The notes under the pieces are model-generated. The model was given only the letters and a program-made list of their open reading frames with translations, did not search any database and was not told the origin of the DNA. Shown piece after piece: positions 10,453-33,555 of a DNA stretch of 36,793 bases. The position numbers and the translations under genes were made by a program. Source of the stretch: Bacillota bacterium (GTDB lineage: Bacteria; Bacillota; Clostridia; Acetivibrionales; JAMNYG01); the NCBI GenBank assembly GCA_023622945.1, contig JAMNYG010000111.1, forward strand, positions 1-36,793, given 5' to 3'. Positions within the stretch are counted from its first letter, which is position 1; each line of letters begins with the position of its first letter.

Positions 10453-12870
10453 CTATTTTACAACTATATTGAATATTTTTCCCGGAACGTAAATTTCCTT
10501 TACAATTTTCTTTCCTTCAATAAATTTTGTGATGTTCTCACTTTCCATGGCCACATCTTTTACTGCTTGCTGGTCAGCATCCTTGGGTACCTTTATTACA
10601 TCTCTCACCCTTCCGTTGACCTGTACGGCAATTTCAATCATATCCTCCACGGTCTTTTCCTCATCCCACTGAGGCCATTTCTGCTCATTCAGCATGCCCT
10701 CAAAACCCAGTATTTCCCAAAGTTCCTCAGTTATGTGAGGTGCAGCCGGATTTAAGAGGATAAGGAATGTCCTGAACTCACCTCTGGTTATCCTCCCCGC
10801 ATCATAGAAATCATTGACAAGGGACATCAAGGTGGCAATTGCAGTATTGAACTTCATTCTTTCAAAGTCTTCACTGACCTTTTTAATTGCCTTGTGCATG
10901 GCTGTTTCCAGCTCCGGCGAATATCCTTCTTCATCAGCCACCAGCTCCTGCAGCCTCCATACACGTTCAAGGAACCTGCGGCATCCCCTGACTCCCTGCT
11001 GGGACCATGGTATTGCCTGATCAAAGGCTCCCAGGAACATCTCGTACACCCTGAATGTGTCCGCTCCGAATTCTTCCACTATGTCATCGGGATTTATGAC
11101 ATTGCCTCTTGACTTGGACATCTTTTCGTTGTTCTCGCCAAGTATCATTCCATGTGATGTCCTCTTCTTGTAAGGTTCCGGAGTGGGTACGCACCCTATG
11201 TCATACAGGAACTTATGCCAGAAACGTGAATACAAAAGGTGCAAAGTGGTATGTTCCATTCCTCCGTTATACCAGTCCACCGGCAGCCAGTATTTCAGTT
11301 CTTCCATATCGGCAAAGGCCTTGTCATTGTGCGGATCAATGTATCTCAGGAAATACCACGAAGAACCTGCCCACTGGGGCATTGTGTCGGTTTCCCTTTT
11401 TGCCGGTCCGCCACATTTGGGACATGTGGTGTTTACCCATTCAGGTATATTGGCAAGGGGAGATTCACCGGTATCGGTTGTCATATAGTTTTCCACTTCG
11501 GGTAATGTAAGCGGAAGCTGATCTTCAGGAATGGGTACCCATCCGCACTTTTCGCATTCCACAAGGGGAATGGGCTCACCCCAGTATCTCTGGCGGGAAA
11601 ATACCCAGTCCCTGAGTTTGTAGTTGACCTTTCTCCTGCCCAACCCCTGCTCCTCAAGCCAGTCAATGATCCTAGGAATGGCTTCCTTTACCTGAAGTCC
11701 GTCAAGGAAACCGGAGTTAACCATCACGCCTGATTCGATATCCGTGTATGCTTCTTTCTCCACATCTCCGCCCTTAACCACTTCGACAATGGGAAGTCCG
11801 AATTTTTTCGCAAATTCCCAGTCTCTTGTATCATGGGCAGGAACGGCCATTATTGCTCCTGTTCCGTAAGACATAAGTACATAATCGGAGATCCATATCG
11901 GTATTTCCTTGTTGTTTACGGGATTTACGGCCATCAGCCCCATAAGAGGCACTCCGGTCTTTTCCTTGGAAATCTCGGTCCTTTCAAAATCGGATTTTTT
12001 CATTGCCTCCTCTCTGTATTTCTCAACCTGGTCCCAGTTTGTTATCTTGTCCTTCAGTTGAGAAACCACAGGATGCTCGGGAGAAAGAACCATATATGTG
12101 GCTCCGAAAAGAGTGTCAGGCCTTGTGGTGAATACCTTGATTATTATATCCTGGCCTGCAATCCTGAATTCCACTTCTGCGCCTTCAGAACGCCCGATCC
12201 AGTTCCTCTGCTGAACCTTTACTTTTTCAATGTAATCAACGGTATCCAGGTCATTCAGGAGTTTTTCAGCATATTCGGTGATTTTCAGCATCCACTGGCT
12301 TTTTACTTTCCTTATGACCTCACCGCCGCAGCGCTCGCAGACACCGTTTACCACTTCTTCATTTGCAAGTCCCACCTTACATTCGGTGCACCAGTTAATG
12401 GGAATCTCCGCTTTATATGCAAGGCCGTGTTCAAAGAGCTTAAGGAATATCCACTGGGTCCAGCGATAATAGTTGGGATCGGTAGTATTGACCTCCCTGG
12501 ACCAGTCAAAGGAAAAACCTAATGACTTCAGCTGGTTTCTGAACCTGGCCACGTTTCTTTCAGTAACGATTCTGGGATGTATTTTGTTCTTTATGGCAAA
12601 ATTCTCTGTTGGAAGCCCGAATGCATCCCAGCCTATGGGATAAAGCACATTATATCCTTCAAGCCTTCTTTTCCTGGCTATAATATCAAGTGCTGTATAG
12701 CTCCTGGGATGTCCCACGTGAAGCCCGTCGCCGGAAGGGTATGGAAACTCTACAAGAGCATAAAACTTCGGTTTTGACTTGTCAGAACTGGCTCTGAAAG
12801 TCCCTTTCTCTTCCCATATGTTCTGCCACTTCTTTTCAATTTCCCTTGGATTATACTCTTTTATATGCAT
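10453..12870 (-). CDS. leuS: Leucyl-tRNA synthetase
   Basis: LeuRS charges tRNA-Leu with leucine and edits mischarged products. I start at ATG 12870 ([16 protein letters not shown]), with AGGAGGAG 5 nt upstream, giving 805 residues, the bacterial norm; the longer frame to 13020 reads through the T-box leader. The class I HIGH motif is in [14 protein letters not shown] and KMSKS in [12 protein letters not shown]. The zinc-like cysteine pairs CTEC/CERC and CPKC lie within the catalytic body, and the editing (CP1) domain and C-terminal anticodon-binding domain are complete. Expression is controlled by the T-box leader. Confidence 0.98.
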
Positions 12871-12894
12871 ACTTACTCCTCCTGAATTATATGT

Positions 12895-12929
12895 AAAAAA
12901 ACCTTTCATCCCTGTTAGAGACGAAAGGT
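12895..12929 (-). terminator. T-box attenuator terminator of leuS
   Basis: On the minus strand an ACCTTTC...GAAAGGT stem with an inner TCTCT/AGGGA helix is followed by seven T residues. It forms when the T-box is not bound by uncharged tRNA, and it competes with the antiterminator that contains the T-box sequence. Confidence 0.93.
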
Positions 12930-13130
12930 CATTTCGCGGTACCACTCTAATTAACGGCGATAGCCGTTCCCTCGTGCAGATGATAACGGGTTCTTCCCGG
13001 TTGAAACTACTTAATTTCATCTCAACAGCTCAGGGACGAGTTCAGAAGTCGACCGGTACCGTTTCCCACCTTACCACGGCTCTCTGTAACCGTCTGCACT
13101 CCCTACTGCTTCCCGTCAACGCTTTTTTAA
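12895..13130 (-). promoter_or_regulatory. T-box riboswitch, leucine (CTC specifier)
   Basis: This leader RNA senses uncharged tRNA-Leu. The T-box core (GAGTGGTACCGCG, TGG pairing with the tRNA CCA end) occupies 12935-12948 on the minus strand. Stem I holds the AGTA loop-E motif (about 13105). On its 3' side GAA is followed by CTC (13040-13038), a leucine codon in the specifier position, flanked by complementary GGGA/TCCC strands. The terminator at 12895-12929 completes the element. The 5' end is approximate, and I see no convincing promoter. Confidence 0.95.
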
Positions 13131-22410: not shown

Positions 22411-22460
22411 TCGCCTTTCATAATTAACAAAGACAGCAATTTTCCATGCAAAATAACATC

Positions 22461-22484
22461 AAAGAGTGGGAAAACCCACTCTTT
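22461..22484 (-). promoter_or_regulatory. rimP leader stem-loop
   Basis: AAAGAGTGGG (22461-22470) and CCCACTCTTT (22475-22484) form a perfect 10-bp stem with a 4-nt loop, about 25-50 nt after the predicted transcription start. I recall similar GAGTGGG/CCCACTC hairpins upstream of rimP in other clostridia. It could pause polymerase, bind NusA or form part of an attenuator. Confidence 0.65.
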
Positions 22485-22517
22485 ATCAGTAAAAGCTATT
22501 TGCTTAAGCCCACGAGT

Positions 22518-22653: not shown

Positions 22654-23325
22654 TTAGTACTGATAGTCTCCCCTGTATTCTACAAGGGTTGTACTTTGAA
22701 CCCCCTGGATTTGCGCAATTTGAGTGGCAAATCCGACATGGGATTTACTTGCCTTGACTTCGTAAATCGTTTCAATCTCATCATTATTTATAACCCTGCT
22801 TTTCATATTATGGCTATACTTGGATAAAATCTTCTTGATTTCTTCATCTGAACTGCTGTCATGCTTTACTATGAACAGGAACCAATTCTTTCTGAAGTGC
22901 CCCGTTTTTGACAATATGACAATTACCGCTGCCAGTATAATACTGCTTAGCACCGCCACTATCCAGATTTTTGCACCAATGGAAATTCCGGCGGTTATTG
23001 CCCAGAACATGTATGTAAGGTCGAGAGGGTCTTTTATGGCTGTCCTGAATCTTACAATGCTCAGGGCGCCAACCATGCCCAGGGATAACACTATGTTTGA
23101 GCTGATTGTTGCTATGATGGCCGTTATAAGAATCGTGATTGCTATAAGTGAAATATTAAAGTTTTTGTTATACACCGCACCCGTATATGTGATTTTATAA
23201 ATATAATAAATGAATAAACCTACCAGTACGCTGATGGCTAACGAAACAACCAGTTCATAGGATGATGCCTGGGCTGCCTCCCAGTTTCTCAAAAAGCTGT
23301 TTTTAAATATGTCCCGGAATGTCAT
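22654..23325 (-). CDS. DUF4956 integral membrane protein
   Basis: This is a 223-residue protein with about four membrane helices (about 28-45, 58-75, 79-97 and 105-137) and a soluble C-terminal domain of about 80 residues. The family hallmark SLGMVGALSIVRFRTAIKDPLDLTYMFWAITAGI links the helices, and the ending TTLVEYRGDY is typical. The biochemical function is unknown to me. DUF4956 proteins are commonly encoded next to VTC-domain and CotH proteins, as here. ATG overlaps the VTC stop by 4 nt (ATGA), indicating translational coupling. It is the last gene of the pel operon. Confidence 0.9.
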   Translation of the reverse strand: MTFRDIFKNSFLRNWEAAQASSYELVVSLAISVLVGLFIYYIYKITYTGAVYNKNFNISLIAITILITAIIATISSNIVLSLGMVGALSIVRFRTAIKDPLDLTYMFWAITAGISIGAKIWIVAVLSSIILAAVIVILSKTGHFRKNWFLFIVKHDSSSDEEIKKILSKYSHNMKSRVINNDEIETIYEVKASKSHVGFATQIAQIQGVQSTTLVEYRGDYQY

Positions 23326-24017
23326 AGTATCTCATCCTCCCATTTGTATTCGTTTATTAGTTTTCTGGCAATTGCATATTTAGATATCGACAATTGCTGC
23401 AGACCGCTTACATTAATAACATCTTTAATAAAAGAAGGAAGGTAATTGTCAAATTTTATCTCAAGAACAGACATATTGGTTATACTGTAACAATATGGGT
23501 TATCCTTGAAAAGGTCACACTCCGGACTTGCCATGATATCCGTATCTATTGTAATTCTTACATCCTTATATATATATGGGATTCTTTTGTATAAAACAAG
23601 TACTACCGGTCTTAAAAACTTATGTCTGTATTCAAAATAAAATTCATACCACAGATGGTCTCCTTCTATCAAATGAAAATCAAACCTGTTCCTGATAATA
23701 CGATCATAATCCTCTTTACTAAGATTCAAGACTCTTTTTTTTATCCTGTCCCCTTCTCTTATTTTTTTCTCAAGCTTTATCGGCGAGTCTTCACCGTAAG
23801 TCCTTATCCTGAATTTATCTCTTCTGTCCACTCCCTGAATCTTATCATAGAATTTGGAGTTGAATATATCATCGAAATATATGCTCTTTACCAGGTAACT
23901 TCCATCCTTATCGACATTTCTGTCAAGTTCCAGCAAACTGTTTAACCTTTGAGTCAGAATTGTTCTCTTATGGTCGGTTATAAAATATTTAAGTTCATAT
24001 CTAAAGCCCTTATCCAT
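23322..24017 (-). CDS. VTC-domain (polyphosphate polymerase-like) protein
   Basis: This 231-residue soluble protein has the triphosphate-tunnel fold of the VTC domain, which in yeast Vtc4 makes polyphosphate from ATP. The basic tunnel motifs are visible: RYELKY at 6-11, SIYFDD at 45-50, DRRDKFRIRTYG at 64-75 and LEKK at 82-85. Acidic metal-site candidates are in MSVLEIKFDNYLP near residue 185. Here it is a stand-alone domain without SPX or membrane parts. The DUF4956 neighbour may supply the membrane partner (inference). ATG has a GGAGAG Shine-Dalgarno and lies 12 nt after the CotH gene. Whether it makes polyphosphate or acts on another nucleotide substrate cannot be told from sequence. Confidence 0.88.
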   Translation of the reverse strand: MDKGFRYELKYFITDHKRTILTQRLNSLLELDRNVDKDGSYLVKSIYFDDIFNSKFYDKIQGVDRRDKFRIRTYGEDSPIKLEKKIREGDRIKKRVLNLSKEDYDRIIRNRFDFHLIEGDHLWYEFYFEYRHKFLRPVVLVLYKRIPYIYKDVRITIDTDIMASPECDLFKDNPYCYSITNMSVLEIKFDNYLPSFIKDVINVSGLQQLSISKYAIARKLINEYKWEDEIL

Positions 24018-24029
24018 GTAAACTCTCCT

Positions 24030-25787
24030 TTAATCGACAATAAATTGCTTTAAACCAAAAATTCTTCTACCGTTTATATCGTAGAAGTAATCAAAAGGAA
24101 GCTGCGTATTGCCATGCTCATCCCTGATTATAACACGGTAATAATACTCCCCTTTTTCCAAAGCAGGCACTTTTATCTCATTTAAGACCAAATCCTTTTT
24201 TTCAAAGATGATGTTATCAAAGTAAGGATCGGTAGATATTAGAAAGTCATAAAAAACATAATCGTTTTGTAAATCAAATGATTGTTCCCATGTAAACACA
24301 AGGCTGCCGTCTTGTTCTTTTTTCACATCGTCAAGAAAAATTGGCATTGGCCTTTCCATATTTTCGTAATACAACCTTTTATATTTTTCTACAAATGTGT
24401 AAAGGCTTTGCAGTTCAGGCAATAATTCGTTGGCATCGACAATAAGATAGCTCACATCAGGCAGTCTAAACAAATATTTCTTTATGATAGGTTCGTATAG
24501 CTTTTGATAATATTTAACTTTTTCAACTACAATTGGATAAAGTTCTTCAATTTTATTGCTCAATTTCTCTACATTTCTGACATCACTAAAGTATCTTTTG
24601 TGAAGGATAGCACACCAATAACTGGCAATTCCATAACGTTCCACTGGTATTATTTTTTCTATTTCCTCATCTCTTCTAAAGGTTCCGTCATAGTCCCACG
24701 GTATGAAGTACCATGTTAATGAGTTTTTGGGGCTGTAAAGCATAAAGTTTTGCGAAACTGTATCGTAATTCCCAAGCAATATGTTCAACGCAAACCAAGT
24801 TAAGTAATTTTCTTCATTAAAATGCTTTTGCATAACTTCATTAATATCCAATTGCATGTTGTTAACATCTTCGATCATGGCAATCAATTTGGCGTGGTCA
24901 GGGTTTTCGCGGATTTCAAATATCATCTCAAAAGCTTCCTGACTATACGTAGGATCGTTCATATCTTTTAAGAATTCCTCATATCGTTGGAATTCAAAAA
25001 ATACAGCTTTATATAATGTACCATTTTCATCCAATTTATGATTGCGCAGAAATGTTTTATTTGGCTGCTCCACATGGGTAAACAAGCCGAAATCGGTATA
25101 ATAGTCACCCTTCTCCAGATCTTTTACGTGTAAGTGTACAAACTGGGTTCTAAGGCTCACTATGTTATCGATATCTTCCATTATATCATAGCAGATTTTG
25201 TTTTTTATCCTTAGGCTGTCATATGGGTGTTTGTTCAAATTCAATGTATTTTGGTTTCTCCATAACCCTGCAGAATCAAAAAGCTTTATTTTAAAGGATC
25301 TTCCTCTTGCCCTTCTTGACGAGGCACCTCTTAATCTCATGATACCGTTTTTGTAAACATCGTTATATCCGAACATTCCTTGTTTTGGCCCGTTTTCATC
25401 GCCCTCCTGTACGATGACTTCAACATAGGCATTTGGATCCAGGTTGTCCGCAGGATACACGAGAAGATCATCCATTGTCCAAATGCTTTCGGACTTTTCC
25501 AAAGGTAAAACCGTAACATAAAGATGGACAACTTCATCATCTTTGTCTAATGAATAAAGCGCTTTATTATCTACAATCGGAAGACCATTCAAAGGGCTTT
25601 TTTCAATATCCCACTCTTCAATTTCCATAATTTCTTCCGTAATTTTTTCCATAGGACCTTCAGCAGTTTCGACCATTTGATTATTTTGTAAAAACGTTTG
25701 ATATTGTACTGCACATCCACTGAACAATATAATTATGGCAATAGATAAACAGCCTACTGCCTTTATAAACCGAAATTTATTTTTCAT
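24030..25787 (-). CDS. CotH-kinase-family lipoprotein
   Basis: This 585-residue exported protein has an N-terminal hydrophobic segment ending in the lipobox LFSGC (Cys25), so it is probably an Lgt substrate anchored outside the membrane. The CotH domain spans about 90-470: MRLRGASSRRARGRSFKIKL near 150 (the usual RGNSSR/KKSYKIK element), YDTVSQNFMLY at 341-351, and the acidic motif IPWDYDGTF at 362-370. CotH proteins of Bacillus spores are atypical kinases that phosphorylate coat proteins. Residues about 480-585 look like a fibronectin III-type beta domain (SLVFTWEQSFD, GEYYYRVIIRDEHGN). ATG with GAGGTG; 39 nt after pelG. It may modify or tether extracellular matrix components (inference). 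Confidence 0.88.
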   Translation of the reverse strand: MKNKFRFIKAVGCLSIAIIILFSGCAVQYQTFLQNNQMVETAEGPMEKITEEIMEIEEWDIEKSPLNGLPIVDNKALYSLDKDDEVVHLYVTVLPLEKSESIWTMDDLLVYPADNLDPNAYVEVIVQEGDENGPKQGMFGYNDVYKNGIMRLRGASSRRARGRSFKIKLFDSAGLWRNQNTLNLNKHPYDSLRIKNKICYDIMEDIDNIVSLRTQFVHLHVKDLEKGDYYTDFGLFTHVEQPNKTFLRNHKLDENGTLYKAVFFEFQRYEEFLKDMNDPTYSQEAFEMIFEIRENPDHAKLIAMIEDVNNMQLDINEVMQKHFNEENYLTWFALNILLGNYDTVSQNFMLYSPKNSLTWYFIPWDYDGTFRRDEEIEKIIPVERYGIASYWCAILHKRYFSDVRNVEKLSNKIEELYPIVVEKVKYYQKLYEPIIKKYLFRLPDVSYLIVDANELLPELQSLYTFVEKYKRLYYENMERPMPIFLDDVKKEQDGSLVFTWEQSFDLQNDYVFYDFLISTDPYFDNIIFEKKDLVLNEIKVPALEKGEYYYRVIIRDEHGNTQLPFDYFYDINGRRIFGLKQFIVD

Positions 25788-25826: not shown

Positions 25827-27263
25827 TTAGCCTAACCAGTTTACAATTTTCTTAAAGCGAGTTACTTTACTGCTGCTGCTAATGGGCTGTGAGCAAAAAA
25901 CCCTGTATTGCAGATTGCGAACTACTTTCTTAAGGTAAGTCAAACTAAAGGTCAATGGAACAACGCTTGCAGCAAACATCCCAAGTCCGTAGAATTCATG
26001 GCCAAGCCTTATTGTAATAGCGGTAAAAACAAGATTCATGACAAAAAACATAATTGCAGCAAGCAAAGACCCTTTCCTATCATCGAAATATAACAAAAGC
26101 GTCATAACAATAAACATCATATATGCACCATAATATCCAAATACCGACAGCATAAACAACTCCATTCCCAAACCGGTAATACCAATTCGTGGAAGGACAA
26201 GGTAACCAATTATCAGTGACAGGAAAGAAATTATCAGCTGGAATTCAAGGATAAATCTCAATTCGCTGTCCAGCCTCTCATCAAGATTGGTTTTGGCCAG
26301 GTTTATGTCCTTGAGTGCACCTCCACCTACTATTGCTTCAAAATACTCCTTATACGGCTCATAAATTGAGGTTTCAACCTTGACCACAAATATGACCGCT
26401 GCAGGTAATGCCGTCACCATGCCTAGGAAAGTCGCTATGTCATATAAAGGAGCGCATTTATATGTTTCCGCTACTGTAATGGATAAATCGGAATATAGCC
26501 AGAACAGAATATTGTCTATATATATCCCCAAGATATAAAACAGGTTTATGAAAAACAACTGGGGCACATCCTGAAAATAGCTCAGAAACTCATAAAATTT
26601 GGCGTCTTTATATGGAAAATACTTCTGTATTGAGTACAAAAGTCCGACAATAGTTGCCAAAAAACCAATATCCATAGCCATTAGAAGGCTTGTGATGGTT
26701 TGCATGTCGGTATATAAAATTAAAATAGCGCCGGAAACCACAGATACCATGGTCCCGATAAGAAAAGAAACGGAAACTTTTTTATAGTCCTTTAAAGCAG
26801 TAACATATACCATTAAAATAAATGTAAATGCCAGTTCCATGAAAAGCATATAAGCAGCAACTTTAAAAACTAATGGCAGCGGGGAATTATAGTAAAAAGC
26901 AATTCCTGCCAATCCAGCAACAGTCAGACAAATAGAGCTCACTCCAACAAGGGATGAAAAGATATCATTGTATTCTTCTTTATATATTTTATCTGCCACA
27001 AATCTTGAGGTCATCATGGCAAATCCGCTTGTAAAAACTAAAGAGAATACAAAAGCATATAATACTGTTGCCATTAATATGTTTCTGTCATAATCACTGA
27101 CATTTAAGTATGATAGGACAACTCTTAGAATAAGCAGTAAAACAATGCATACAATAATAGGACCTATAGTTACAAAAGACGCATATGCATAACCTTTTGC
27201 CGCACCTGTCAACGACCTGTTATTTGTGAGAAGTTTTTTTAGTTCAAAGCCGATACCAGCCAT
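25827..27263 (-). CDS. pelG: PelG-like polysaccharide transporter
   Basis: PelG is a polytopic MOP-superfamily (Wzx-like) membrane protein that works with PelF, PelD and PelE to polymerise and move Pel polysaccharide across the membrane. The 478 residues begin MAGIGFELKKLL, the family start, and contain about 12 hydrophobic segments. Basic residues and GAAKGYAYASFVTIGPIIVCI come early, and YFQDVPQLFFINLFYILGIYIDNILFW lies near the middle. ATG follows the pelF stop directly (TGAATG), with GGGGG 5-6 nt upstream, implying coupling with pelF. Confidence 0.94.
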   Translation of the reverse strand: MAGIGFELKKLLTNNRSLTGAAKGYAYASFVTIGPIIVCIVLLLILRVVLSYLNVSDYDRNILMATVLYAFVFSLVFTSGFAMMTSRFVADKIYKEEYNDIFSSLVGVSSICLTVAGLAGIAFYYNSPLPLVFKVAAYMLFMELAFTFILMVYVTALKDYKKVSVSFLIGTMVSVVSGAILILYTDMQTITSLLMAMDIGFLATIVGLLYSIQKYFPYKDAKFYEFLSYFQDVPQLFFINLFYILGIYIDNILFWLYSDLSITVAETYKCAPLYDIATFLGMVTALPAAVIFVVKVETSIYEPYKEYFEAIVGGGALKDINLAKTNLDERLDSELRFILEFQLIISFLSLIIGYLVLPRIGITGLGMELFMLSVFGYYGAYMMFIVMTLLLYFDDRKGSLLAAIMFFVMNLVFTAITIRLGHEFYGLGMFAASVVPLTFSLTYLKKVVRNLQYRVFCSQPISSSSKVTRFKKIVNWLG

Positions 27264-28679
27264 TCAGATACCCCCAAAATGTTCATATAAATTCCTGTAA
27301 TTGTTGATGACATCCTGAATTCGATAGTATTTATCTATTCTTCGCTGGGCAACTTCTCCCATCTTCTTCCTAAGACTTTCGTTCTTCAACAGCATCATAA
27401 TCTCTTCTGCCAGCTTTGTGTAATCCATTGCTGGTACTACAATGCCGGCTTCCCCAAAAAAGTCATCTTCTTCTCCATACAATAGTTCCTTAATACTCCC
27501 TACATTGGTAGCAACATGTGGTTTGCCAAAAGCCATGCCTTCCAGTACTGCAAGAGGCTGCCCCTCACTGATGCTTGACAATACCAGCAAATCCATATCG
27601 TTGATATGTTCCGCTATATTGACATTGCCGTAAAACTTGATATTCCTTATATTTAAAGTCTTCGCCAGTTCCAGGCATTCCCGGTAATATTCTGTTTCCT
27701 CATCATATGGACCCATTATATGAAATCTGACGTTATTCATATTTTTTTCGACCATATTAAAAGCATATATCATTGTCTTTATGTCCTTTATAGGAACAAC
27801 TCTTATAATAGCTCCGACATTTAAATACCCTTCTTCTTTTTTGGGTCTTATCCTGGTTTTTATAACATCAAAATCCACTCCGTTTTTAATAACCTGGGTC
27901 TTATTTTCATCACATCCCAGTTCAATCTGTATTTTACGGCTTCCTTCGAATAACGATATTACCTTGTCTGCATATTGATAGGCGCAGCCGGATAAATTAT
28001 AGAAAAAGTTTATCCAAATATTTTTAAATGCTCCCCTGACCCAGTCGGCTTTAATGATCTCCTCTTCTCTTTCACGGGTATAGATTCCATGTTCAGTAAT
28101 AATGAAAGGTTTGTTTTTCATATACTTGCATTTGCTGCCAATCAACCCTGCGTATCCGGTTGAAACACTGTGATAAACATCTGCGTCGGGAAAATCCTGT
28201 TTCAATAAATAAAGCATGGGAACCAGGATTGACCTGACCGTCCAAAAGAAGTCGGTGAAAGATACTGTCCATTTATTTTCGGTATATGCTTCCATTATCA
28301 GATCTAAAAGAGTCTTGCTCTTAATGATAGTGCTGGCGTTCAGTTTCCTGTTTCTATCAAGGAACTCAAATAAAACGCTCCAATCGAATGCCTCACCTTT
28401 TATTAATGATAAAAGTACGTCTCTTTCGGCATCGCGCAAATTAATTTTTTTGCCCCATTCCTTTTCTTCCTCAAATGCCTTGTCCAGGAATATTTCCTTA
28501 ATTTCTACCAGATTCTCAGGTAATTCATAGTGAAATTTGCCGGCGCTTTTTCTGTGAGCATTTATCGCTATAACGCTGAATTCCTTTTCCGGCAACGATT
28601 TTATTATATTTTGAACCCAGCTTGATACTCCCCCAACCACATATGGGTAACAGCCTTCTGCTATAATACATATCCTCAT
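27264..28679 (-). CDS. pelF: PelF-like GT4 glycosyltransferase
   Basis: PelF is the cytosolic glycosyltransferase that polymerises Pel, using UDP-GalNAc in studied systems. I start at ATG 28679 (MRICIIAEGCYPYVVGGVSSW), with GGAGG 7 nt upstream, giving 471 residues; an upstream in-frame start at 28712 would overlap the previous gene. The GT-B fold is clear: a glycine-rich N-terminal loop (EGCYPYVVGGVSSW), FIITEHGIYTREREEEI in the middle (PelF hallmark), and the nucleotide-sugar site E-x7-E in SEGQPLAVLEGMAFGKPHVATNVGS. It lies between the PelA-like gene and pelG, the common pel order. Confidence 0.95.
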   Translation of the reverse strand: MRICIIAEGCYPYVVGGVSSWVQNIIKSLPEKEFSVIAINAHRKSAGKFHYELPENLVEIKEIFLDKAFEEEKEWGKKINLRDAERDVLLSLIKGEAFDWSVLFEFLDRNRKLNASTIIKSKTLLDLIMEAYTENKWTVSFTDFFWTVRSILVPMLYLLKQDFPDADVYHSVSTGYAGLIGSKCKYMKNKPFIITEHGIYTREREEEIIKADWVRGAFKNIWINFFYNLSGCAYQYADKVISLFEGSRKIQIELGCDENKTQVIKNGVDFDVIKTRIRPKKEEGYLNVGAIIRVVPIKDIKTMIYAFNMVEKNMNNVRFHIMGPYDEETEYYRECLELAKTLNIRNIKFYGNVNIAEHINDMDLLVLSSISEGQPLAVLEGMAFGKPHVATNVGSIKELLYGEEDDFFGEAGIVVPAMDYTKLAEEIMMLLKNESLRKKMGEVAQRRIDKYYRIQDVINNYRNLYEHFGGI

Positions 28680-28701
28680 CAATAATCCTCCAAACTCAAT
28701 A

Positions 28702-30489
28702 CTAATCCTCAAAACTTAAAACAGTATTGTTTTTGGTTAGCCTTACCAGATAATAGTTATCTGACACTTTTACAATATTCCTGGAATTTCTCTTTAGCGG
28801 TTTTTCGGTATAAACCATGACGTCAAAATAGTCATATAACTTGTCGCAATATATGGTAATTCCATTTTGATTTTTCTCAAAGCTGATATCTGTCTCGAAA
28901 TATTTCTTAGTCTTGACTGCTGCCTGGGCAGTAGTTACAGCTTCTATCCACTTATAATTGTCGTCTATGTCTTTTAGCATTTTATCTAATTCTTTTAGCA
29001 ATCCACCCCAGTCAAGGCCTCTGCTTCGTTCCTCGTCAATAATGTCATCCGGATGAATATAATGAGATATAACTCCCAGGCTTGTTATTCCGCTTGCCAT
29101 TACAAAATCATCAATGCTGTTATAGCGATAGCCTGAGGTTATTCTTGGGAAATTGACTATTCCGTCGCTCCTTACAGAAAATTCCTGAAGATACTCATAG
29201 TCTTCCCCTTGATATCTCGCACATATGGCCTTTAAATTCGGAAATACAGTCTTTAATGCCTGTATCCCTTCTTCCGATAAAATATTGGATGGAGGTACAT
29301 ATGAACAGACGTTGTAAAAAGGATATACCTTCCTTATCAGCGCCTTAACATGTTCAAGGGCATCAATCATATTATCCATTTGTTTCCATGGATTATAACC
29401 AAAATCATGTCCTGAGTTTTCCAGTTCCAAAGGCTGATGATTGTATCCATGAAGACCTAGTTCTCCACCATACTTGACCAATTCCCTGCCATATATCAAT
29501 AAATTGGTTTCTATCACGTCTTCGAAACCAAATGGCGGTTCGACATTGTCATTATACGTTCCTATGATAAAACCTGTATATTTAATATTGTATTTACGGA
29601 TGGTAGATACAATATCAGGCCACCAAATCTCATTTACAAATCTTGAATAATCAAGACCATATAAACTCTTCAGCTTGTCACTGTCGGCTATAAATGGAGA
29701 AGGAAAATCATCGATTTGAAACACTTTTGCATTTATAACAGGATATACAAAACATTCTCCTGCCCTTGCTATAATACCTGTGAGTATTCCTCTGAAAAGC
29801 TTGCTTTCTGAATTAAGACCGTTATAAACAATTATCTTTCCTTTACCAAAAGGTATTTCCCAGATAACCGGCAAATTTTTATTTGCTGTCATATATATTT
29901 TGCACTCTTCACTCAGCCTTACAAGCAGTCCTCCGTCAAAAGGCTCTTCCCATAAATATTCCTTTCCTTTGCGTCCGATAAGTATGTCTTCATTCATTTG
30001 ATAGCTGTCATATTGAACAAAATCGCCATACTCATAAATGCCCACCTTTCTATAATAAATTAAAAAGTTATGTGAGCGTGTATCCGGAGCCGAAAATATT
30101 ACAAGGTTTGTACCGTCAGAAACAAAGGATAATAGCTTTCCAAAATCAACCAGGTCCCAGTTGGAAAAAGAGATCAAGACTTTTTGATATCCGCTAAAAT
30201 CCACTTCCTGGGTTTTAACATTTACTGAGTCATATTTTACCCGCAGATTGTTAAGTTGTACCTCTATGTTTTCCTTTACCATGCTATTGGTCTCATCGTA
30301 TAACAATAACGTATTATCCGCTTGTTCAATGTAATAATTGAAAACCTTTAAATCCTCAGGTTTCAATTCATTAATATAATTTTCAAGCCTGTTCCAAACG
30401 ATAATATAATCCATTCTTATCAACTGTATGATCACCACAATGATAACCGAGATGATAATAATGCCCAGATTTCTATCTGCTTTCCTCAT
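28702..30489 (-). CDS. PelA-like membrane-anchored deacetylase-type protein (DUF2194-like)
   Basis: The 595 residues comprise an N-terminal membrane anchor (about 8-24) and an alpha/beta domain (about 55-245) resembling a glutamine-amidotransferase-like fold (NTLLLYDETNSMV, KVLISFSNWDLVDFGKLLSFVSDGTNLVIFSAP). A carbohydrate-esterase-like barrel (about 250-520) and a beta-rich tail (about 530-595) follow. Probable metal ligands are D260/D261 in FQIDDFPSPF, H347 and H351 in LGLHGYNHQP, and perhaps H476/H480 in ISHYIHPDD. PelA of Pseudomonas has hydrolase and deacetylase domains; here I see the deacetylase-like part but no clear GH166 hydrolase. It probably acts on the exported polymer at the outer face of the membrane. 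It overlaps the pelE end by 17 nt and is coupled to it. Confidence 0.82.
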   Translation of the reverse strand: MRKADRNLGIIIISVIIVVIIQLIRMDYIIVWNRLENYINELKPEDLKVFNYYIEQADNTLLLYDETNSMVKENIEVQLNNLRVKYDSVNVKTQEVDFSGYQKVLISFSNWDLVDFGKLLSFVSDGTNLVIFSAPDTRSHNFLIYYRKVGIYEYGDFVQYDSYQMNEDILIGRKGKEYLWEEPFDGGLLVRLSEECKIYMTANKNLPVIWEIPFGKGKIIVYNGLNSESKLFRGILTGIIARAGECFVYPVINAKVFQIDDFPSPFIADSDKLKSLYGLDYSRFVNEIWWPDIVSTIRKYNIKYTGFIIGTYNDNVEPPFGFEDVIETNLLIYGRELVKYGGELGLHGYNHQPLELENSGHDFGYNPWKQMDNMIDALEHVKALIRKVYPFYNVCSYVPPSNILSEEGIQALKTVFPNLKAICARYQGEDYEYLQEFSVRSDGIVNFPRITSGYRYNSIDDFVMASGITSLGVISHYIHPDDIIDEERSRGLDWGGLLKELDKMLKDIDDNYKWIEAVTTAQAAVKTKKYFETDISFEKNQNGITIYCDKLYDYFDVMVYTEKPLKRNSRNIVKVSDNYYLVRLTKNNTVLSFED

Positions 30490-31393
30490 ACTGCAAATCT
30501 CCCCACCAGAATTTGATCAAAGCATGAGCGTTTTCAGACAGATATCTGATTCTCTCTCTCATTAACAATAAATAATCTCTGAGGTCTTTTGTCCTTCTCG
30601 ACATATAGCAGATTCTTGCCATATAGAGATATCCGTTTTCATTTTGCGGATCCATGTCTATAAGCATATTCGCATATTTTTCTGCTTCGATAATATCACC
30701 CTTTCCGATAAGCTCAGTGATTAAATCATTAAGGAAGACATCGTAATCCTTAGCCGACTTATAATTGTCCACATAACGCTTCAAAAGATTAATATAATCG
30801 TTATTGTATATTTCAAATTGCCCCGGCTCAACAATCCGGTATTTTATATACTTTTTGAGAGTTGAAATATACGCATGTAAATTATCTATATCTTCAGGAT
30901 TGCTGTTGTACATGGTTTGAATTCTGTTCAGTTCCCGGTTTAAATCATCTTTAATCTTCATTATGGCGGAAGCCGCATAATGAGCGGTTTCAGGGTCCTG
31001 ATCAGATAATGCAAATCTCAATAAGTCTGTATAGCTGACAACATCGTCCTTGAATATATCAATTATCTTTTCCCTTTTTGTTTTGCTGTCGTTAATTATT
31101 AAAGCTTCCTCCAGAGGAACCACATTGATTTCCTTGTCGACATTCTCTAAATTATAGTACTTGTATAGCTTTTTTTGTCTTGATAACAAATCGCTGTAGT
31201 CAATTTCCTGCTTGTCAGTGATTTTTTCGAATAATCCGATTGCAATAATTGAAACAAATCCGGCCACAGGCATGAACAAAGCGATCAAACCCTTGCACAA
31301 TGCCGCCCTGAAATTTTTAGTGGAAAGAAAGAAAAAATAAAAAATGCAAACTATTATATGAATACATAATAAATACAAATACAGAAGAATCAC
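30473..31393 (-). CDS. pelE: PelE-like membrane protein with TPR region
   Basis: PelE is a membrane component of the Pel synthase complex, binding PelD. The 306 residues have two N-terminal helices (about 2-24 and 33-54). A cytosolic helical region follows with VVPLEEALIINDSKTKREKIIDIFKDD and LLRFALSDQDPETAHYAASAIMKIKDDL (about 90-150). TPR-like repeats then run to the end (DIIEAEKYANMLIDMDPQNENGYLYMARICYMSRRTKDLRDYL). The start is GTG 31393, whose GTGA overlaps the stop of the epimerase-PelD gene by 4 nt. Assignment rests on topology, TPRs and position between pelD and pelF; PelE sequences diverge strongly. Confidence 0.86.
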   Translation of the reverse strand: MILLYLYLLCIHIIVCIFYFFFLSTKNFRAALCKGLIALFMPVAGFVSIIAIGLFEKITDKQEIDYSDLLSRQKKLYKYYNLENVDKEINVVPLEEALIINDSKTKREKIIDIFKDDVVSYTDLLRFALSDQDPETAHYAASAIMKIKDDLNRELNRIQTMYNSNPEDIDNLHAYISTLKKYIKYRIVEPGQFEIYNNDYINLLKRYVDNYKSAKDYDVFLNDLITELIGKGDIIEAEKYANMLIDMDPQNENGYLYMARICYMSRRTKDLRDYLLLMRERIRYLSENAHALIKFWWGDLQYEESR

Positions 31394-33555
31394 CTCTCAT
31401 CCTCTACAATTTCGGAATTCAGACCTGCGTTCATCAATCTTTTTACAACATTTTGTGCTCCCTGATGGTCGGTATTTGACAAAAGAACTCTGACAGTGCT
31501 ATTGTCATCCACCCCGATGTAATCGTTGCTCCTGATTAGAGGCGAGAGCTTTCTTGATAACTCAATTAAACTGCCTGGTACAGTTGTAATTACCAATTCG
31601 GTATACTTGCAGCTTTTTTTGGCTTCACCTTCTTTTCTTATCTGCTTGATCTTTTTATACCACTCATTTTTAAGAATCAACGTATCTTCTATATATCTTT
31701 GAGAGTATGTTGCCTGCTCATATTCATAGGCCCGCACCAACGACTGTGTAATCAGGCCCATAACTATGTTAAACAGATTGGTAAAACTTAGAGTCAGGCT
31801 CTCAAATTCTATGCCGTCTGCAAATATCAGCGCAATAACTTCATTGTTGTTTAATATAGGTGAAATTATGACAGGGACATCAGGCTTTAACTCCTTGTTA
31901 ACAAACATCTCCCTGTTGTTTACAACCCATGAAATCTCTTCTGATTCAGAAACCTGGAAGGTGTTCTTAGGAGAATAATTTATATTATTGCTGGCCATAA
32001 GCCTCAGGTAGCTTTTGGTTTTATCTACTATATAAACGGCTACCCCATCAGCTTTAAATATCTCTGAAACAATATTAACTGCCTCCTGGAATATCTTTTC
32101 CGGTGCAAGTGTATTTAGGGCTGATACAATGCTGAATATCTTGCCAAAGCTGTCCTCATATCCAAGAATCTGGCTTTTCAGCTTTTCTCTGATTGCAACA
32201 TTCTGCTCATATATCTCGGCAAGAAGGTTATAATCATTTTCCTTCTGCTTGCAGATCCTTTTATGCTCTTCAATTTCCTCATTCTTTTTTTCAATAAGAT
32301 ATCCTACGCCGATTCCTATTGTGGAATACATGATAACGGTCAGCAAGGTGTTCAGGCCGTAGAGTATCATTGTGATATCGGAGCCGTACATCATGTTCTG
32401 TACAAAATAATTAACCACGGACAATCCGACAGCAATGGCAGTCTGCTTGAAATTATGAAATATGGCTATTAAAGCAATATATAATATCATTAAATCTATT
32501 GGATTGGTATTATATATATTGCTTCTTATCCTGTATGACAAAAATGCGAATACAATAAAAATCAGAATATTTTCTATATAAAGAAAAAGTCCGTTTCTCG
32601 ATTTTATTCTTTCCTTCAGTTTTTTCTGATTTTCGGTTTTTTTCTTTTCTTTGTATTCTTTTTTGTGCCATTCATAAGTTTTTTTCAGCCCTTCTTCAAG
32701 GCTGCACAAGGGTGCCCAGTCCAATTCAGTCTTGGCTTTGGTGTTATCAAGCAACATATGATAAATATCCTTTGTTTTTTTATCAACAAAAGTCACTTTA
32801 TCATAGCCTGTAATTTCCTGCAGTTTTGTATATAATTCAGATAAGCTGGTTTTGGCCTGGGAAGATATGTTGAGAATCTTGCTTATGGTGGAATAACTTG
32901 ACTTATATATGGCCTGGGCTACATCCTCAACATAAATAAAATCCAATTCCTGATTATCTGTATCGCATATTTCAACAGTTTCATGGCTGGCTATTTTGTC
33001 CAGAATTTTTGATACAACACTGCTGTTTTCACCTGCTGTTTCCCTGGGTCCGTAAACATGGGAAAGGCGAAGAATAACATAATCCAGGCCGTATACTTTA
33101 CCCCATTGTTCAACATATTGTTCGCCGATGTATTTACTTATCCCATAGGAAGAAGAGGGTGAAGGCACCTGTTCCTCTTTGCAGGGCAACTCGGTGCTGT
33201 CGCCGTATACAGCTCCTGTGGACACGTAAATAAACTTCTTAATTTTGTATTTGGATGATAAACTAAGAAGATTAGCCAGCCCGTCAATGTTATCCCTTAC
33301 ATCAATGCCTCTTCCTTCAGAAGACATCTTAGCGTCGGCCAAATGAACCACAACGTCAAAGTGATGAATTTTAAATATGCGATCGCATACCTTGTCGCAT
33401 ATATCGAGCTGATAAAAACTGTGCTTTAGTTTCAGATTTTTCTTTTTTCCTGATGAAAGATTATCGATTACGCAAACCTCATGCCCTTCTTTGATGAACG
33501 CCTCAGCAGCATGAGAACCAATAAACCCACAACCCCCTGTTATAAGTACGTTCAT
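31390..33555 (-). CDS. pelD: Fusion of a nucleotide-sugar epimerase with a PelD-like c-di-GMP receptor
   Basis: This is one 721-residue frame. Residues 1-300 are an extended SDR epimerase of the GalE/PelX kind: GGCGFIGSH at 7-15, STGAVYGD at 112-119, Y137-xxx-K141, and RLSHVYGPRE near 163. It probably makes UDP-GalNAc or UDP-GlcNAc-type donors. Residues 325-420 form about four membrane helices, and 421-465 are coiled-coil. A GAF domain (about 470-605) and a degenerate GGDEF domain (about 620-715) follow. In the last, VDDNS replaces GGDEF, so no cyclase activity is expected, but R675-S-N-D678 keeps the RxxD I-site that binds c-di-GMP in PelD. Such binding switches on Pel synthesis in Pseudomonas and Bacillus cereus. 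ATG follows GGGGAG at a rather long 11-nt spacing. It is the first gene of the operon. Confidence 0.9.
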   Translation of the reverse strand: MNVLITGGCGFIGSHAAEAFIKEGHEVCVIDNLSSGKKKNLKLKHSFYQLDICDKVCDRIFKIHHFDVVVHLADAKMSSEGRGIDVRDNIDGLANLLSLSSKYKIKKFIYVSTGAVYGDSTELPCKEEQVPSPSSSYGISKYIGEQYVEQWGKVYGLDYVILRLSHVYGPRETAGENSSVVSKILDKIASHETVEICDTDNQELDFIYVEDVAQAIYKSSYSTISKILNISSQAKTSLSELYTKLQEITGYDKVTFVDKKTKDIYHMLLDNTKAKTELDWAPLCSLEEGLKKTYEWHKKEYKEKKKTENQKKLKERIKSRNGLFLYIENILIFIVFAFLSYRIRSNIYNTNPIDLMILYIALIAIFHNFKQTAIAVGLSVVNYFVQNMMYGSDITMILYGLNTLLTVIMYSTIGIGVGYLIEKKNEEIEEHKRICKQKENDYNLLAEIYEQNVAIREKLKSQILGYEDSFGKIFSIVSALNTLAPEKIFQEAVNIVSEIFKADGVAVYIVDKTKSYLRLMASNNINYSPKNTFQVSESEEISWVVNNREMFVNKELKPDVPVIISPILNNNEVIALIFADGIEFESLTLSFTNLFNIVMGLITQSLVRAYEYEQATYSQRYIEDTLILKNEWYKKIKQIRKEGEAKKSCKYTELVITTVPGSLIELSRKLSPLIRSNDYIGVDDNSTVRVLLSNTDHQGAQNVVKRLMNAGLNSEIVEDER

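Follow-up and report, generated by a model that had tools for sequence, protein, structure and literature searches.

The pelD gene of the window, by which we mean the whole analysed stretch of 36,793 nucleotides (on contig 194 of a 2.67-Mb assembly that is 86% complete, from a bacterium placed with some likelihood in the class Clostridia), encodes a PelD of the SDR-fused kind. We favour, with moderate confidence, the reading that its epimerase half has lost UDP-sugar binding, no longer supplies the sugar donor and has been kept as a structural or docking module. An earlier note on this DNA, made from the sequence alone, had taken the same half for a complete SDR epimerase.

The fused PelD and its operon

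The SDR and PelD were confirmed to share one uninterrupted frame, as the earlier note had claimed: it has 721 codons with an ATG start and zero internal stops, the epimerase-like SDR is N-terminal, and the 721-residue protein matches the whole genome without stops. PelG searches yielded 99 pel loci in which PelD, PelF and PelG could all be used (a single-protein scan of genome contigs gave no matches, the PelG alignment as query did), and in 87 of these 99 an SDR-derived domain and PelD lie in one frame. There is no stop or frameshift at codons 300-320 and the homologues are not always two genes; the open frame and the many fused homologues rule out a frameshift or chimaera as the source of the fusion. 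Split frames do occur elsewhere: in a Clostridium thermobutyricum MAG (L083:3696-5919) pelD is in two frames, and likewise in L119.

Table 1. Features of the fused PelD and of the surrounding pel operon, in window coordinates
Feature	Position	Strand	Basis
pelD, SDR-TM-GAF-degenerate GGDEF fusion, 721 aa	31390..33555	-	open frame, Pfam, PDB fold match to PelD
residues 1-300, extended SDR domain	32656..33555	-	Foldseek and residue alignments
residues 301-432, linker and membrane helices	32260..32655	-	hydropathy, AF2 helices
residues 433-721, coiled coil, GAF and degenerate GGDEF	31393..32259	-	alignment, fold match 4dn0
pelE-like, 306 aa, GTG start overlaps pelD stop	30473..31393	-	position; phmmer matches to the same gene in relatives
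pelA deacetylase (DUF2194/polysaccharide deacetylase), 595 aa	28702..30489	-	Pfam PF09960 E 4e-126, PF01522
pelF GT4 glycosyltransferase	27264..28712	-	NCBIfam NF038011, 392 bits, cut-off 100
pelG exporter	25827..27263	-	Pfam PF16933 E 1e-132
CotH-kinase-like accessory gene	24030..25787	-	Pfam PF08757
VTC-domain accessory gene, polyphosphate polymerase-like	23322..24017	-	Pfam PF09359
DUF4956 membrane accessory gene	22654..23325	-	Pfam PF16316
terminator-like hairpin, 11 pairs, operon end	22460..22485	-	consensus scan

Pfam finds Epimerase (PF01370) at residues 3-218 (E 5e-54) and GAF_3 at residues 485-602 (E 2e-6), and gives no match for a GGDEF domain in the fusion protein. A phmmer search of the GAF-GGDEF part against PDB also gave no match, and a profile of 34 homologues matches GGDEF chains weakly (E 0.006), but the fold search succeeded: the AlphaFold2 model of residues 433-721 (pLDDT 89.7, from 34 homologues) has as its best predicted fold matches in PDB the P. 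aeruginosa PelD structures 4etz (E 9e-9) and 4dn0, the latter with c-di-GMP (E 6e-8). GAF_3 and these fold matches bear out a TM part followed by GAF and a degenerate GGDEF. As for the four membrane helices proposed earlier, the TM region stands, whereas hydropathy is strong for two segments only (322-340 and 403-421); AF2 predicts helices at 286-346, 355-366, 369-389, 394-399 and 401-465, and the number of TM helices is less certain than the rest of the layout. The AF2 models were built from 32-34 sequences, and because the full-length model has a pTM of 0.52, domain packing was left uninterpreted.

The putative c-di-GMP site of the degenerate GGDEF, R675-x-x-D678...R706, has all three residues, with a spacing that agrees with R363/D366/R395, the c-di-GMP residues given for B. 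cereus PelD in PMC7112168. Across 32 diverse SDR-PelDs R675 and D678 never vary and R706 hardly does, and the triad is kept in most homologues that have the GGDEF domain. These residues, the predicted PelD fold and the neighbouring pelE, pelA(DA), pelF and pelG argue for the earlier assignment of a PelD half with a c-di-GMP site inside a pel operon; at other places the genome has several genes for GGDEF proteins. Two of the surveyed loci (L082:5528-7546 and L091:13196-15112) have an intact SDR on a PelD that stops after GAF and so lacks the GGDEF domain; no such arrangement was found in the literature examined. L089 and L093 are divergent pel loci with an SDR-PelD lacking GGDEF, no pelA match and separate SDR genes nearby.

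The operon runs pelDEA(DA)FG-cotH-VTC-DUF4956, with pelD first and with genes that overlap or have short gaps; the CotH gene is linked to SDR-PelD loci in the survey. The terminator count around the hairpin at the operon end is not above shuffle expectation, and no riboswitch was found upstream of pelD. Elsewhere in the window a T-box leader (12914-13128, minus strand; Rfam RF00230, 137 bits) overlaps the start of an 855-aa ORF (10453-13020, minus strand). In 17 Bacillales pel loci (L120, L121, L123-L131, L133, L141-L143, L145 and L165) PelG and a CotH-like protein form one frame of ~1030-1170 aa with a lipoprotein-like hydrophobic junction; a literature search at title/abstract level found no PelG-CotH fusion.

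Loss of the UDP-sugar residues

Foldseek with the SDR half returned TM0509 GalE (4zrn, E 5e-29) and PelX (6wjb/6wj9, E 5e-24, 28-29% identity). The motifs behind the description 'complete SDR epimerase' are present: GGCGFIGSH at residues 7-15, with G7, G10 and G13 of GxxGxxG, is joined by Asp31, and the catalytic S/T-Y-K set is kept as Thr113-Tyr137-Lys141, with YGISK at 137-141. The UDP-sugar residues, on the other hand, are replaced. The fused SDRs of the surveyed loci were aligned with 12 separate SDR genes of the same loci, E. coli GalE (NC_000913), TM0509, PelX and the genome's own GalE. Where GalE has N179, R231 and its gatekeeper 299, the window has His166, Leu204 and Met267, and the intact fused homologues have Asn (30/30), Arg (30/30) and Ser (29/30); N179 and R231 are also present in E. 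coli GalE, TM0509, PelX and the genome's own GalE. Furthermore, GalE R292 is Lys in the window and GEGGV has become GENSSV. The alignment around the lost residues is free of gaps (VILRLSHVYGPRE against RFSNVYGPRQ, and DTDNQELDFIYVED against GDGxQTRDFIYVED). From GalE structures we take N179 and R231 to bind the UDP-diphosphate/sugar and position 299 to be the gatekeeper, at which a small residue presumably goes with N-acetylated sugars. Given His, Leu and Met at these positions, the window epimerase is not complete. With UDP-sugar binding probably lost, the domain most likely supplies no donor, and judging from the residues it is probably no longer a donor-making enzyme.

The closest relative, L078 (52% in PelG; starred clade with support 99 in the PelF+PelG tree), carries Asp, Gly and Tyr at N179, R231 and 299; the sample of the window's own lineage is small, at two loci. 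Intact fused SDRs share 74 positions with a conservation of 95% or more; the window departs from them at 15, of which 14 lie at or after GalE position 82, I29V being the sole difference in the N-terminal NAD-binding part. When SDR identity to the Bacillales homologues is taken relative to that of PelF/PelG, the window scores 0.98, the triad-intact set 1.06-1.36 and decayed copies 0.40-0.76; the ratio therefore suggests early decay or a changed role and not free decay. The genome encodes a separate canonical GalE (479 bits, cut-off 262) with Cys at gatekeeper 299, a type that we assume usually accepts N-acetylated sugars, so the cell need not depend on the fused domain alone for UDP-GalNAc.

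A rival proposal, which follows the earlier note, is an active fused UDP-HexNAc 4-epimerase from which UDP-GalNAc is channelled to PelF, with c-di-GMP in control. The intact T113-Y137-K141, GxxGxxG and D31, the nearest solved folds and an SDR conservation close to that of PelF/PelG agree with this proposal, but the replaced N179, R231 and gatekeeper, the changes at R292 and GEGGV, the loss of the same sites in the sister lineage L078 and the separate GalE make it unlikely, and the fused domain as maker of the UDP-HexNAc donor is unsupported here.

Probable single fusion and order of decay

In the PelF+PelG tree (a quick IQ-TREE, SH-aLRT only, unrooted) 8 SDR-less loci stand apart and the remaining 91 form one group (100, starred) that holds all SDR-bearing PelDs. 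Among the loci scored as lacking an SDR within this group, L166 is an apparent loss, L137 and L168 are PelD fragments and L146 is really degenerate. Intact and non-intact SDR states require at least 6 changes on the tree; we read these as losses, since a complete active site could hardly have been regained time after time. It thus looks, from the trees, as if the SDR-PelD fusion had a single origin that was followed by repeated decay of the active site. The SDR tree splits fused from stand-alone epimerases (100, starred), with long branches that meet and make its details unsure. The stand-alone SDR L104:4476-5459, 62% identical to L091 and from a genome without a PelG match, is nested among the fused copies and is probably an escaped domain of a fused SDR. 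Compensation of degenerate SDRs by a separate epimerase was considered and rejected: of the 56 non-intact loci 10 have a separate epimerase gene, as does 1 of the 31 intact ones, a difference that is not significant and comes from 3 independent pairs on starred branches, in loci truncated by contig ends. In L099:2573-5767 a separate intact PelX-like SDR gene directly precedes a PelD with a degenerate fused SDR.

Seven intermediate homologues from ~5 lineages (the window, L078, L132, L089, L093, L099 and L117) have all lost R231 and have all kept G7, G10, G13 and D31. This order, together with losses that cluster outside the N-terminal NAD-binding part, would fit an NAD(H)-binding regulatory domain that binds no UDP-sugar, responds to NAD+/NADH or some other small ligand and adjusts PelD together with c-di-GMP. 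However, in GalE-type extended SDRs NAD is a firmly held part of the fold, so that retention may be structural, and the NAD motif is lost as well in the fully decayed homologues; we regard such a regulator as quite improbable. A bolder and just as doubtful form of it is that an NAD(H)-loaded pseudo-epimerase gates the Pel synthase, in which case a single PelD chain would combine c-di-GMP with a signal from redox/NAD or from the nucleotide-sugar pool and the order of decay, UDP site first and NAD site last, would mark the path.

Across 29 alignable degenerate copies, for which the alignments of deep SDRs are rough, retention is 0% for Tyr, Lys, N179 and S299, 100% for S112, E145 and D211 and 97% for E23, with R163, L97, Y168 and G7 within 90-100%; the substrate-lid stretch has 8% of its conserved residues left against 28-60% elsewhere. 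A set of residues (E23, R19, K22, L93, G144, C148 and Y168) is characteristic of the fused domains and seldom seen in separate epimerases, and the window keeps K22, E23, L93, G144 and Y168 of them. In the AF2 model L93 falls within the predicted helix 82-102, and G144 and C148 within the predicted helix 136-155; we assume that the matching helices form the dimer bundle in GalE. The kept fused-typical residues and their positions in the dimer helices therefore point to a retained non-catalytic interface, although the fused-specific residues may come partly from shared descent. Degenerate copies retain a domain of ~300 residues, with a median length before the TM part of 311 residues against 325 in intact ones.

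Could the SDR half be a neutral relic on its way out, without a present role? Active-site decay recurs on the tree, L166 has apparently lost its SDR as well, and according to PMC7112168 the biofilm of S. thermophilus JIM8232, whose allele has no SDR, still depends on the pel locus; the domain length and residue core kept in ~50 degenerate loci nevertheless make a relic very improbable.

Proposed role of the fused domain

The interpretation that we prefer, a fused SDR that is now most likely a scaffold or interface of the synthase, rests on predicted structures and conserved residues. The N-terminal domain would descend from a PelX/GalE-like UDP-HexNAc 4-epimerase that was fused once to PelD and that appears to have stayed intact in Paenibacillus, Brevibacillus and their relatives. 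In the window lineage UDP-sugar binding would have been lost while the NAD site and catalytic triad were kept, leaving a module for structure or docking within the synthase that probably holds NAD and forms dimers, with UDP-GalNAc presumably coming from the separate GalE. Binding of c-di-GMP to RxxD...R of the degenerate GGDEF would license the PelDEFG complex, judging here from residues and fold; c-di-GMP control via PelD has been shown in P. aeruginosa and B. cereus (literature). Two aspects speak against this interpretation. First, with a complete motif and S/T-Y-K set the domain might pass as functional by the criteria of PMC7112168, which concern cofactor and epimerase-activity residues; second, at a ratio of 0.98 it is mildly less conserved than PelF/PelG and constraint is not gone. 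A changed instead of a lost substrate is possible.

A full-looking set of SDR motifs is thus insufficient for calling an epimerase, as the UDP-binding residues went first. The survey frames the question of what the SDR does in Gram-positive PelD: intact Bacillales copies should be PelX-like enzymes, and substrate channelling is plausible in these fusions, which keep a PelX-like pocket, whereas the decayed clostridial copies should be scaffolds. E23, L93, G144 and Y168, kept in intact and decayed copies alike, are the candidate interface with the rest of the synthase.

Comparison with known PelD systems

The suspicion that SDR-PelD fusions had been noted before was correct. Whitfield et al. 2020 (PMC7112168) describe PelDs that carry an SDR at the N-terminus. 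This SDR appears to be functional in Brevibacillus, whereas streptococci, clostridia and actinobacteria have changes in its cofactor and activity residues; the same authors report that the SDR correlates with downstream CotH, polyphosphate polymerase and DUF4956 genes, so that the fusion and the operon were already known. Four PelD classes by SDR and GGDEF state are cited from a 2021 review in a 2025 paper (PMC12345266), according to which S. intermedius pelD (class IV, SDR degenerate) is required for aggregation.

The Brevibacillus SDR-PelD of PMC7112168 shares the SDR-TM-GAF-GGDEF order and the operon with the window, CotH/VTC/DUF4956 being present in L116 and L177, but these two Brevibacillus loci keep the equivalents of N179, R231 and Ser299, which the window does not. 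The degenerate-SDR PelDs of clostridia, actinobacteria and streptococci (S. intermedius class IV) resemble the window in having an N-terminal SDR-derived domain that is probably no epimerase, whereas the window retains the NAD motif, the catalytic Tyr/Lys and a putative c-di-GMP-binding GGDEF. The PelDs of P. aeruginosa (4etz, 4dn0) and B. cereus ATCC 10987 have, like the window, GAF and a degenerate GGDEF with RxxD...R, but no SDR domain. Finally, PelX of Pseudomonas protegens (6wjb, 6wj9), a stand-alone UDP-GlcNAc C4-epimerase, has the fold and catalytic triad of the window SDR; it is a separate protein, however, and retains the Asn, Arg and Ser that are replaced by His, Leu and Met in the window.
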